A stretch of 64,000 bases of DNA from Chthoniobacteraceae bacterium. GTDB lineage: Bacteria; Verrucomicrobiota; Verrucomicrobiia; Chthoniobacterales; Chthoniobacteraceae. Positions within the stretch are counted from its first letter, which is position 1, and every line of letters starts with the position of its first letter. The stretch is taken from contig JAQGOL010000035.1 in the NCBI GenBank assembly GCA_028293625.1, positions 62,001 through 126,000 on the forward strand. The letters are read 5' to 3'. A model generated the notes under the pieces. That model saw nothing but the letters and a program-made list of their open reading frames with translations, was not told the origin of the DNA and did no database searches. The translations under genes and the position numbers were made by a program. Below, piece by piece: positions 47,981 through 52,185 of this stretch.

Positions 47981-49582
47981 GTGACCACTCCAAATGCGAT
48001 TCCTGTTGCCCGCGAAAAAGTCGATTTTCGTTCCAAGCTGAATGATGTGCCGCACAAACCGGGCGTCTATTTAATGCGGGACCGCTTGAATCGCGTTATC
48101 TATGTCGGCAAAGCTCGCGACCTTCGCAAGCGCGTAGGCCAGTATTTTATGCCGTCGCGCAAAATGACGGCCGACCTCAAAACACGCGCCCTCCTTGACA
48201 GTGTCTGGGACTTTGAATGGCACACCGTTAACAGTGAGCCCGAGGCGCTTTTGCTTGAGGGCCGTCTGATCAAGGAGTTCCGGCCCCGTTACAACATTAG
48301 TTTTCGCGACGATAAAGGATTCCTCCTGGTGAAGGTCGATCTGCGCGATGAGTGGCCGCGCTTCCGGCTGACACGTCAAAAGAACGATGAAGGGGCTCGC
48401 TATTTCGGGCCGTTCGCCCATTCGGGCGCTTTGCGCCAGACACTCACTTTCATGCGCAAGACATTCGGGGTGTTGACCTTTGGACGAGGCAACCCGACTC
48501 CACGGGAACTCAAATCCTCCACCTATCAGGTCCCAATGAAATTAAACGGGATCACGCCCGAGGAATACCGCGAAAGGGTGCTTCGCGCCTGCGAACTGCT
48601 CGCCGGCCAGTCCCGGGAAATGCTCGCCCAACTCGAAGAAGAGATGAAAGCGGCCGCCGCGGCGCTCGATTTTGAGCGCGCCGCTGAAATGCGCAACATG
48701 CTCGACGATTTGCGCAAAACGACCAAGCCGATGCATCGCTATACCCGTTCTTTCGGACACCGGCTCGGCGGCGCAATCGATCCGCTGGCCGATATCGCCG
48801 CGCTGGCCGAGTCCCTGCAGCTCGGCAAACCGGTGCGCCGCATGGAATGTTTCGATATCTCCAACATCAGCACCACGCACATCGTGGCCAGCATGGTCTG
48901 CTTTATCGATGGCCGGGCCGCGCCCCAGCTTTACCGCCGTTTTCGCATCCGCACTGTTGAAGGGCAGGACGATTTTGCGAGCATGGCCGAGGTCGTGCGC
49001 CGCCGGTACAGCCGGATTTTGCGTGAAGCCGGCGAGAATGCCCGGAAACCGTCTGAATCGAATGATCCAGCGGTCGATTATTCGCCGGAATTTTCCCAGG
49101 AAGAACCGACGGACGCCGTGCCGCGCGTGGCCACCCAGCATGCCTCGCTGCCGGATCTGATCATTGTCGATGGCGGCAAAGGCCAGCTTAACGCCGCATG
49201 CAGGGAATTGCGCAAAATGCGTCTACAGGATGTGCCGATTATCGGGCTCGCCAAGGAGTTTGAAGAGATTCATCGCCCCGGGCAGGCGCTCCCTACGTTA
49301 TTGCCAGCCGATAGCGGCGCTTTGCGGCTTTTACAGCGAATCAGGGATGAAGCGCATCGCATTGCCAATTCGTATCATCAGCTCCTTATGAAACGGCGAA
49401 TGGGCGAGAGCATTCTGGATGATTGCCCGGGAGTTTCCAGCAATCGCAAGCAACTCCTGCTGCAGCGTTTCGGCAGCGTGACCCGGCTCAGGCGTGCCAC
49501 TGCGGTGCAAATCGCCACCGTAGAAGGGATCGGCGTAAAGCTTGCCGAACAAATCGCCTTGTATCTCGCCGAGCGCCGGTAG
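47981..49582 (+). CDS. uvrC: UvrABC excinuclease subunit C
   Basis: The 533-residue protein has an N-terminal GIY-YIG nuclease domain (PGVYLMRDRLNRVIYVGKA), a UVR motif near residue 215 (LDFERAAEMRNMLDDL), an RNase-H-type UvrC domain (ECFDISNISTTHIVASM and LIIVDGGKGQLNAA), and C-terminal helix-hairpin-helix motifs (GVGSVTRL-like FGSVTRLRRATAVQIATVEGIG in two parts). It makes the dual incisions in nucleotide excision repair. It is somewhat shorter than E. coli UvrC, but all domains are present. Start is GTG. The origin-like region follows its stop. Confidence 0.95.
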   Translation: MTTPNAIPVAREKVDFRSKLNDVPHKPGVYLMRDRLNRVIYVGKARDLRKRVGQYFMPSRKMTADLKTRALLDSVWDFEWHTVNSEPEALLLEGRLIKEFRPRYNISFRDDKGFLLVKVDLRDEWPRFRLTRQKNDEGARYFGPFAHSGALRQTLTFMRKTFGVLTFGRGNPTPRELKSSTYQVPMKLNGITPEEYRERVLRACELLAGQSREMLAQLEEEMKAAAAALDFERAAEMRNMLDDLRKTTKPMHRYTRSFGHRLGGAIDPLADIAALAESLQLGKPVRRMECFDISNISTTHIVASMVCFIDGRAAPQLYRRFRIRTVEGQDDFASMAEVVRRRYSRILREAGENARKPSESNDPAVDYSPEFSQEEPTDAVPRVATQHASLPDLIIVDGGKGQLNAACRELRKMRLQDVPIIGLAKEFEEIHRPGQALPTLLPADSGALRLLQRIRDEAHRIANSYHQLLMKRRMGESILDDCPGVSSNRKQLLLQRFGSVTRLRRATAVQIATVEGIGVKLAEQIALYLAERR

Positions 49583-49608
49583 AGCGGTTTTCACAAGTTC
49601 TGAACGAG

Positions 49609-49834
49609 TTGTTCACCGCTTTAAGAAGAGATTTTAAATTTCAAAACTCTCAATTCATAGCCTTAATGCTGTGAATAAGAGGCGGGGATGGAGTTCCACG
49701 CAGCGGCAAAGGGTGTTCCACGCCGATCGTGGCTTGGGAATAAGTATCCAGCGCGATTCGAGCCTGTGGCCGGAACCCGGATTGCCGGCAAGTTATTGGG
49801 CTCCACTCAAGGTTGCCCACAGGTTATTCACAAT
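49609..49834 (+). repeat. Origin-region repeat unit A
   Basis: From the TTGTTCAC at its start, motifs occur at +61 (TGTGAATAA), +84 and +106 (GTTCCAC), +129 (GAATAA), +184 (TTATTGGG), +204 (TTGCCCACA) and +215 (TTATTCACA). The +10 to +50 interval is A/T-rich (GATTTTAAATTT). It shares the CATAGCCTTAATGCTGTGAA block with unit B. Confidence 0.8.
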
Positions 49835-50166
49835 TTATTCCCGGCTTCCGGCCAGCCGCCGGCACCGGGGTAAATACCTCCCGGCGAATCAGGCAAAGTC
49901 CGCGGTTTGCGCCGAAACAAATGGGCCAATCGATGTTTGGGTTAAAACATCAAGTAGACGGTCGTATGGCACCTCGATTGAATCCTCTCTGTAGAGCGGC
50001 CTTTTGATCCGTTTTTTTGGCATCCAATCGCGGTGCGCCGGGTCGCCCGTGTAAAGCGTCCGCCTTGGCGGCTCCTGGTCTCCACCTTGGTAAACCACCC
50101 CACCAAAAATTCCATGAGCCTCGAAAATGGGCGGAGCAAGTGTCGATTTCAGCCGCGGTTTTGGAG

Positions 50167-50392
50167 TTGTTCACAGCTCTATGAAGAGATTTTATTTTTA
50201 GAAAACCAAACCTCATAGCCTTAATGCTGTGAACAACTTCGCCGGATGCGGTTCCACACCGCTCCATGGCGGGTTCCACGGATTTTGGCAGATGCGAATA
50301 ACCCGCCGGTTCGATCCGCATGACTGATGGGAAGTCCGAATTCGGGCGACTTATTCAGAGCGGCTCACACTTATTCACAGGTTATCCGGTGC
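50167..50392 (+). repeat. Origin-region repeat unit B
   Basis: Same motif register as unit A: TTGTTCACA at 0, TGTGAACAA at +61, GTTCCAC at +84 and +106, GAATAAC at +129, TTATTCAGA at +184, TTATTCACA at +204, TTATCCGG at +215. A/T-rich core GATTTTATTTTTAGAAAA. Confidence 0.8.
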
Positions 50393-50541
50393 CAATTTGC
50401 ACCCTGAAACTCCGGCGGAAATTTTTTGCGCCCGGCCCGGTTTTCAGTGGCGCTTGGGCTGACGCCCTTTGGGCGGAGGCCGTCCCCGCGGCGATGATGC
50501 ATCGATTTGCGCTTTTACCGGAGCGCGCGTGGAATGATCCA

Positions 50542-50767
50542 AAAGTTATTCACAGGCTCATGGGAAGATGTGAAAAGGGCAACTTCACCCACGCCGATAA
50601 GATGTGAACAACGATACGGATTCCTGCTCCACGCTGATTCCATCAGGGTTCCGCGCCGGTTGGCGGCTGGGAATAACTTTCCGAAAGCCTGTTTGAAGAG
50701 GGCCGGAAACTTTGAAACGGGAAGGTTATTCCAACAGTTCCCGAGTTATTCACAGCTTATTGGGTGG
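50542..50767 (+). repeat. Origin-region repeat unit C (diverged)
   Basis: The first box is shifted by four bases (TTATTCACA at +4) and the core is not A/T-rich, but TGTGAACAA at +61, GCTCCAC at +84, GTTCCGC at +106, GAATAAC at +129, TTATTCCAA at +184, TTATTCACA at +204 and TTATTGGG at +215 are all in register. Confidence 0.7.
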
Positions 50768-50890
50768 CTTGTTCGCCGTTTTTGAGCCGGTTCCGGATAA
50801 TGGACGATGAAGGGGTTCCCTTCGAGGAGTCGGCAAATCGAGGACAAGACCGGATTTTAAAAAGCGACCTTCACGCTGACCGAAGCGTGG

Positions 50891-51116
50891 TTGTTCACAT
50901 CTCTTCTGAAGAAGAAAAGGTTCTGGAATAAAAACTTCTCAGCCTTAATCGAGTGAATAACTCGTCCGAATCGTGTTCCACATTCTGTCCATCGCCGTTC
51001 CACACGATTCACAGCCTGCGAATAACCTGGCGGCTCAATCGGAAGCCGCGCCCGTAACTTGCATTATTGCGCGGTTATTCTGCCGAACTCGAAGTTATTG
51101 GCAGGTTGGTAAGAAC
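50891..51116 (+). repeat. Origin-region repeat unit D
   Basis: TTGTTCACA at 0, AGTGAATAA at +61, GTTCCAC at +84 and +106, GAATAAC at +129, TTATTCTG at +184, TTATTGGCA at +204. The last 40 bases run into the 3' end of rnc, so the final boxes are also coding sequence and are degenerate. Confidence 0.72.
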
Positions 51117-51851
51117 ATTGTTCTCAGCCACATTGGCCGGCGATCCCTTCGCCGCGCCTTTTTTGAAAGGCTGCTTCCAGAGCTGCTTTCTCAAAGCATT
51201 GTGAGCCGCCGCCACTTCCGCTTCCTTTTTGCTGCGCCCTTCCCCTTCGCCGAGTTCAATGCCGGACCAGACGATTTTTGAGACAAACTGCTTTTGATGC
51301 TCCGGACCCGACTGATCAATAATCGGATAAGTCGGACTGACCGGTGAGATGGCCTGGAGGATTTCCTGGAGTTTGCCCTTGGGATTGGCTTCCGGCGGGT
51401 CAACATCGAGATTTTCGAGGATCTCACGCGACTCGGTCAGCACGATCCGGCGCACCGTCACGTAATCCGAATCCAGATACATCGCGCCAATCAACGCTTC
51501 ATACGCATCGGCGAGCGCCGATGCCCGTTCCCGGCCGCCGCTTGATTCCTCGCCCCGGCCCATCATCAGATATTTTCCCAGGCCCATATCGACCGCGAGT
51601 ACTTTAAGGCCTTCCCGGGAAACGAGACGGGCTCGTAATTTGGTCAGTTCGCCCTCGGTGAAATCGGGATGATGATCAAAGAGGTATTCAGTGAAAATCA
51701 GTTGCAGCACCGCGTCGCCGAGAAATTCGAGGCGCTGATTGTCAAAATGATGGCGCTGCGTCTCGTGCCCCAGGCTGGGATGAGTCAGTGCTTCCGCCAG
51801 AAGCAGAGAGTTCCGAAATTTATATTTGATGCGCTGTTCGAGCGGATTCAT
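51075..51851 (-). CDS. rnc: Ribonuclease III
   Basis: The 258-residue protein has the RNase III catalytic domain with signature NQRLEFLGDAVLQL and ALADAYEALIGAMYLD (metal-binding Glu/Asp residues), followed by a double-stranded RNA-binding domain (NPKGKLQEILQ, then a GRSKKEAEVAAAHNAL helix). It cleaves double-stranded RNA in rRNA and mRNA processing. A 25-residue low-complexity C-terminal tail overlaps part of the last origin repeat. Start is MNPLEQRIKYKF. Confidence 0.96.
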   Translation of the reverse strand: MNPLEQRIKYKFRNSLLLAEALTHPSLGHETQRHHFDNQRLEFLGDAVLQLIFTEYLFDHHPDFTEGELTKLRARLVSREGLKVLAVDMGLGKYLMMGRGEESSGGRERASALADAYEALIGAMYLDSDYVTVRRIVLTESREILENLDVDPPEANPKGKLQEILQAISPVSPTYPIIDQSGPEHQKQFVSKIVWSGIELGEGEGRSKKEAEVAAAHNALRKQLWKQPFKKGAAKGSPANVAENNVLTNLPITSSSAE

Positions 51852-52109: not shown

Positions 52110-52185
52110 TGGGGTGACCGACGGGATTCGAACCCGCAACAACCAGAATCACAATCTGGGACTCTACCATTGAGCTACGGTCACC
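52110..52185 (-). tRNA. tRNA-His (anticodon GTG)
   Basis: The minus strand folds as a complete 76-nt tRNA with encoded CCA. The anticodon arm CCAGATTGTGATTCTGG presents GTG. The T arm has GGGTTCGAATCCC. An extra 5' G at 52185 pairs with the discriminator C, the identity element of tRNA-His, and the 7-bp acceptor stem (GTGACCG/CGGTCAC) is perfect. The roughly 260-bp stretch between it and rnc shows nothing else recognisable. Confidence 0.97.

Follow-up and report, generated by a model that had tools for sequence, protein, structure and literature searches.

Where does replication of the chromosome begin in a Chthoniobacter-like bacterium whose genes uvrC and rnc are separated by an unusually patterned gap, filled with sites that resemble DnaA boxes? 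For the more distant verrucomicrobium Methylacidiphilum infernorum the origin was set by GC skew at 250 nt upstream of dnaA, according to the part of the article available to us (PMC2474590), and the excerpted text on 12 mouse-gut strains, including Akkermansia muciniphila, reports that origins located by parS and GC skew were not always at dnaA (PMC10197239). Among the titles and abstracts listed in searches of an open-access library none described the element analyzed here, and no natural tandem oriC array was found by title or abstract among the listed papers on tandem or multiple oriC.

In the present study the region between uvrC and rnc was analyzed with regard to its sequence, conservation and copy number, and in some relatives to its position relative to strand asymmetry and parS. 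It is very probably the oriC of this bacterium. If this is right, a recognisable origin becomes available for Chthoniobacterales and some related families, together with a natural example of an origin growing from one module to four, and direct contact between ParB and the origin becomes testable.

Genome and locus

The assembly comprises 6.83 Mb in 43 contigs, and the window, by which we mean the whole stretch of 64,000 nucleotides analyzed, is located on contig C39. The nearest named relatives of its rnc are Chthoniobacter, Spartobacteria and other Verrucomicrobiota, mostly metagenome bins. The intergenic gap (49583-51074, 1492 bp; positions are those of the window unless a contig is named) is flanked by the convergent 3' ends of two genes:

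47981-49582, plus strand: uvrC, left neighbour, pointing toward the element (Pfam UvrC_RNaseH_dom, GIY-YIG, UVR)
51075-51851, minus strand: rnc (RNase III), right neighbour, with the element at and beyond its 3' end (Pfam Ribonuclease III and dsrm)

A tRNA gene lies upstream of rnc (52113-52184), and an Rfam scan of the window returned nothing beyond one tRNA.

DnaA boxes and the four units

Five exact copies of the box motif TTATNCACA had been claimed for the gap, and five were recounted; at no more than one mismatch the number of DnaA-box-like sites rises to 15. In 500 dinucleotide shuffles of 49583-51074 the exact motif occurred 0.02 times on average (maximum 1) and sites at no more than one mismatch 0.66 times (maximum 5). 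The gap holds 5 of the 83 exact TTATNCACA sites of the whole genome, and the runner-up windows of 1.5 kb contain 5 sites each (593 kb of C39 and 200 kb of C31 scanned). A dense cluster of DnaA boxes in a non-coding gap, as is characteristic of an oriC, is hence present.

The sites are arranged in four units in register, each of about 225 bp:

49609-49833, minus strand: unit 1, profile score 77.8 bits, E 3e-21, unit included in profile
49609-49617 (plus, TTGTTCACC, two mismatches), 49670-49678 (minus), 49735-49743 (minus), 49824-49832 (plus): boxes of unit 1
49693-49699 and 49715-49721: GTTCCAC pair of unit 1
49618-49669, no strand: A/T-rich core of unit 1, candidate unwinding element, A/T 0.71 (0.04% of the 52-bp windows of C39 are as A/T-rich)
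50167-50391, minus strand: unit 2, profile score 81.9 bits, E 1.5e-22, best of the four, unit included in profile
50167-50175 (plus), 50228-50236 (minus), 50293-50301 (minus), 50351-50359 (plus), 50371-50379 (plus): boxes of unit 2
50251-50257 and 50273-50279: GTTCCAC pair of unit 2
50176-50227, no strand: A/T-rich core of unit 2, candidate unwinding element, A/T 0.67 (0.17% of C39 windows)
50542-50766, minus strand: unit 3, degenerate, profile score 63.3 bits, E 1e-16, unit included in profile
50546-50554 (plus), 50603-50611 (minus), 50668-50676 (minus), 50746-50754 (plus): boxes of unit 3, whose half-sites read GCTCCAC and GTTCCGC
50891-51115, minus strand: unit 4, proximal to rnc and overlapping its 3' end, profile score 75.3 bits, E 1.8e-20, unit included in profile
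50891-50899 (plus), 50952-50960 (minus), 51017-51025 (minus): boxes of unit 4
50975-50981 and 50997-51003: GTTCCAC pair of unit 4
50900-50951, no strand: A/T-rich core of unit 4, candidate unwinding element, A/T 0.63 (0.56% of C39 windows)

Ungapped identity between units over 225 bp ranges from 43 to 63% (mean 51%), against a mean of 25.5% and a maximum of 35% in 2000 random pairs from the contig. When the window genome was searched with profile R1, these four units were the only full matches, and the other matches at E<=1 were the same cores on the opposite strand, which appear because the core is quasi-palindromic.

The earlier note on this DNA had described the four units as carrying eight motifs each, at constant offsets. 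Their register holds, and so does a four-base shift of one box, namely the first box of unit 3, but the motifs are not intact in each unit. The GTTCCAC pair is exact at six of eight places, the exceptions being the two half-sites of unit 3. The motif placed at +215 is a DnaA box in unit 1 only; units 2 and 3 have a box at +204 instead, and in unit 4 neither position matches well. An A/T-rich core had been credited to two units, correctly for units 1 and 2, but unit 4 has one too. These three cores, all in the top 0.04-0.6% of C39 windows, are candidate unwinding elements of the kind expected in an oriC; in unit 3 such a core was sought between the boxes and is absent, the A/T content being an ordinary 0.48.

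Conservation across relatives

The seed profile was matched by 24 of the 80 named rnc loci at E<=1.1e-13, although nine of these 24 had themselves gone into the seed, and by a further eight at E<=3e-4. Model R1 was built from the four window units and 24 relatives, so that matches of its own members count by construction; some genomes also duplicate named loci in R1 (e.g., contig C60 of G016, which agrees in length and element position with the C. flavus contig, locus L099), and the counts include both.

In the Chthoniobacteraceae 38 of 40 genomes, the window genome included, match the unit profile at E<=0.001, and with the exception of the window genome each does so at a single place when overlapping matches on the two strands are merged. 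One conserved locus per chromosome, a further property of an oriC, is thereby found in these 38 of 40 family genomes. The two genomes without a match in the family search are G001, of the same genus, and G014, which is 62% complete and reached E 0.002 in the search of the order. With stricter filters than those applied to the family, 142 of 197 genomes of the order match at E<=0.01, and in the class 111 of 384 match, so that most genomes of the class are without a match; outside the family many matches span just the core between the inverted boxes. Two genomes of the order, G045 and G054, each a single contig of 0.9 Mb and 99% complete, gave no element match with the strict filters, and in these reduced genomes the element may be lost or altered.

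The gene rnc is present in the 3-kb locus of 27 out of 29 family loci, and relatives carry a single unit just beyond it, followed by differing genes. In locus L030 the gap that holds the unit is likewise one between rnc and uvrC. In 20-kb pieces from three genomes of other families (G076, G112 and G041) no rnc was seen near the element, the piece of G112 covering 1.8 kb on one side.

Anatomy of the element

Elements at E<=1e-6 numbered 83, of which 79 came from 131 loci and four were the window units; only 58 are distinct because named loci and other genomes overlap. A box pair was obtained from 56 of them, and 54 are of full length and were used for the tree and the GTTCCAC counts; the four own units are part of every set.

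Read outward from rnc, the element consists of DnaA boxes near the rnc end, a box of TTATTCGCA type, a GTGGAAC-like pair (GTTCCAC on the plus strand), a TTATTCACA box, an (AAG)n tract, an A/T-rich stretch and the inverted box TGTGAACAA. In 55 of 56 elements, the four own units among them, a distance of 59-63 bp separates the inverted boxes that flank the core. Relatives have kept the (AAG)n tract that follows the left box, and 40 of 56 elements show four or more successive triplets with A in the middle (z 12.2); in the window genome the tract is degenerate.

A reading of this tract as a standard DnaA-trio was first considered and then rejected, as its polarity is opposite to the rule for the left box, the convention being that given in the consulted parts of PMC8235120, PMC7561715 and PMC10316083. 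Correctly oriented trios in the 16 bp next to a box are, as a group, not enriched, neither at the left box (z -2.6; a run of at least four in 5/56) nor at the right box (z 0.1; 8/56); at the right box trios of reverse polarity occur in 16 of 56 elements (z 4.6). Single elements do agree with the loose published trio rule, such as unit 2 with a run of four from the right box. An (AAG)n tract of polarity reverse to the DnaA-trio rule is a new feature.

The spacing of the GTTCCAC-like pair is exactly 22 bp in 52 of 54 elements; 46 of 54 have at least one exact copy and 12 have both exact, the second base being the most variable. On C39 the heptamer occurs 94 times (both strands, 593 kb), six of them within the 1.5-kb gap. 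A second protein had been proposed for this pair, and the proposal can be narrowed, since GTTCCAC, the heptamer of the units, is identical to half of parS. In the part of PMC7022226 that was available, ParB of Pseudomonas aeruginosa is described on half-parS GTTCCAC or GTTTCAC, as are five other ParBs clearly and four weakly, and nine not. Judged by this identity, ParB is the most likely occupant of the pair in the element; a weak DnaA site or a site of another protein is possible. At the level of sequence, the conserved GTTCCAC-like pair matching the half-parS heptamer is new.

Strand asymmetry

The element lies within the zone where strand asymmetry switches in G076 and near that of G390. 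On contig C2 of G076 (3.76 Mb, sampled in 20-kb pieces), where the element is found at 75 kb, GC skew is negative from 0 to 60 kb, stays close to zero as far as about 160 kb, is positive in all samples from 160 kb to 2.7 Mb and is negative in four of the five thereafter; six samples of contig C3, the orientation of which is unknown, gave mixed signs. An oriented motif was picked from the two arms of G076, and because of this choice only G390, G364 and G360 test it independently (match lists of G390 and G360 are complete). In G390, a single contig, the motif is mostly on the minus strand up to 2.364 Mb and more often on the plus strand from 2.550 to 5.06 Mb, the element being located at 2.425 Mb, and an equally good fit is reached at only 2.6% of grid positions. 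The detrended walk of this genome reaches -12.3 at 1.767 Mb against -12.0 at 2.364 Mb, with mixed signs from 2.8 to 4.0 Mb. Agreement is loose in G364, where the zone of low values has a width of roughly 0.2-1.3 Mb by a hand count of the first 100 matches listed, and G360 is compatible with the element's place but does not discriminate, as 44% of its grid positions score at least as high as the element.

In G112 GC skew switches near 940 kb, with the element at 902 kb and the last sample negative again; samples of G041 showed no switch. The skew of the own contig C39 is weak, with a cumulative low near 20 kb, a slight rise to 70 kb and a flat course to 110 kb, and thus no minimum at the element on the scale of contigs. 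GC skew gave no clear pattern for the portion of C31 examined or for the 558-kb contig of C. flavus Ellin428, which has its element at 125.6 kb, and the orientation of GAGCAGGG gave no signal on C39 and the C. flavus pieces.

Motifs that orient FtsK are strand-biased. A bias like theirs is displayed by GAGCAGGGC in G364, where all 33 matches listed between 1.73 and 2.93 Mb of contig C1 are plus-strand.

parS, ParB and dnaA

The parS of these genomes is of the TGTTCCACGTGGAACA type. Whole genomes were searched at no more than one mismatch in six cases, and in four of them (G112, G390, G360 and G364) exactly one pair was found, 6-8 kb from the element; the window genome has one near-perfect parS 56 kb from the element, with a second parS-like site 0.8 kb from the first under a looser match, and G076 has none. 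A parS nearby, likewise typical of an oriC, is thus found in four of the six genomes searched whole, with the own site at 56 kb. Pairs with one or two mismatches are situated 0.2-1.5 kb from the element in G076 and 9-10 kb in G041, as seen in the fetched pieces only, and the sampled pieces of C. flavus contain no parS pair. Three frames around the parS pair of G112 have no Pfam family. The parS-like sites of the window genome (C39:168057 and 168823, outside the window; locus L018) are placed one within gidA/mnmG and one at its 5' end, an arrangement shared by G041; gidA adjoins oriC in other bacteria. The sole ParB_N match of the window genome (G000 C11:152008-152286) is on a different contig from the parS pair.

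The dnaA gene of the window genome is on a different contig from the element, and of the dnaA genes seen on the element's own contig in a check of 11 genomes, that of G021 comes closest, at 78 kb. An origin at dnaA was rejected: the 5 weak boxes in 1.5 kb of the dnaA region equal the best window of the 200-kb piece but amount to one third of the 15 at the element.

The region as a probable origin

An origin of the chromosome, as the earlier note had suggested, is favoured because one locus is conserved in 38 of 40 family genomes and persists beside other genes, because strand asymmetry switches at or near it in G076 and G390, and because parS is close by. Protein binding, melting, initiation and the choice of the unit that fires are deduced from architecture. 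DnaA would fill the boxes, the A/T-rich core of 52 bp enclosed by the two inverted boxes (spacing 61 bp) would melt, and helicase would be loaded at the melted core, while the GTTCCAC pair would be occupied by another protein, for which ParB, bound to half-parS sites, is the likeliest candidate.

How the four units would share this work can be envisaged differently. As a sub-case of the oriC reading, and compatible with it, one unit alone may be the working origin and the other three may mainly hold or time DnaA as a datA-like sink beside it. The loss of the A/T core in unit 3, which has kept four DnaA boxes, and the single unit of the other matching family genomes speak for this division, against which stands that units 1, 2 and 4 all retain a core and that unit 2 is the best profile match; we give it slightly less than an even chance. 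We regard it as rather unlikely that the conserved half-parS pair with its two-turn spacing puts ParB inside the origin and so couples segregation to initiation, and that the window genome has several firing-competent modules in tandem; this was rated lower because the pair, though kept in position, has two exact copies in no more than 12 of 54 elements.

Clustered DnaA boxes are also a property of datA and DARS of E. coli, and the locus could accordingly be imagined as a site of DnaA titration, the other option of the earlier note, or reactivation only, with the true origin elsewhere. Dense boxes and the missing skew minimum on the own contig would suit such a site. It is nonetheless improbable: the A/T-rich core is retained with fixed box spacing, parS lies beside the element in several families, strand asymmetry switches in G076 and G390, and the dnaA region holds only 5 weak boxes. 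Hardly credible is a role as binding sites of another regulator recognising TTGTTCACA and controlling rnc or uvrC, to which the inverted pairs among the boxes and the adjacency of rnc in 27 of 29 family loci might point, since the gap sits between convergent 3' ends and the element occurs without rnc nearby in G076, G112 and G041. Chance low-complexity sequence or an assembly artefact is refuted by the shuffles (at most 5 against 15 sites), by conservation across genera and, for misassembly, because the units are too divergent (44-61% aligned identity).

As an origin, the region resembles oriC of E. coli and B. subtilis in its intergenic DnaA-box cluster with A/T-rich core, in parS nearby in several genomes and in the parS-gidA link that the window genome shares with G041; it differs in its location away from dnaA, in two boxes inverted around the core, in four tandem modules and in the half-parS-like pair. 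From datA and DARS, with which it shares clustered boxes, it differs in the A/T-rich core that is kept and the parS in the neighbourhood. With the basal unwinding system of DnaA box, spacer and DnaA-trio, as outlined in the accessible text of PMC8287927, it has in common a trinucleotide repeat near a DnaA box, whereas here the (AAG)n after the left box is reversed and trios of the right polarity are unenriched at both boxes. Thermotoga maritima oriC with its eTrio is similar, as far as the excerpt of PMC10316083 goes, in having essential trinucleotide repeats beyond the trio nearest the box and one inverted box, but box sequence and spacing are different and the repeat here is AAG, not TAG. 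The heptamer GTTCCAC is common to the half-parS sites bound by ParB; these number hundreds chromosome-wide in the portion of PMC7022226 consulted, in contrast to a fixed 22-bp pair inside a candidate origin here.

Probable growth of the array

In the tree, unit 4 clusters (support 0.69) with the one unit that L030 carries, likewise between rnc and uvrC; units 1 and 2 form the closest pair (support 0.96) and unit 3 is placed elsewhere. Between the aligned ends of these two genes L030 has some 220 bp, compared with 1492 bp in the window genome. By sequence, unit 4 is probably the ancestral copy, and one module beside rnc most likely expanded to four in the lineage of the window genome, because unit 4 adjoins rnc and groups with L030, the gap of L030 is short, and units 1 and 2 are closest to each other. 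On this view the one original module, next to the rnc 3' end, was multiplied, with units 1, 2 and 4 retaining the candidate unwinding core and unit 3 the DnaA boxes only. Two matches about 0.5 kb apart (E 6e-5 and 0.006) are found in G493, a member of another family (C1:497134-497757), and perhaps constitute a second multi-module origin.
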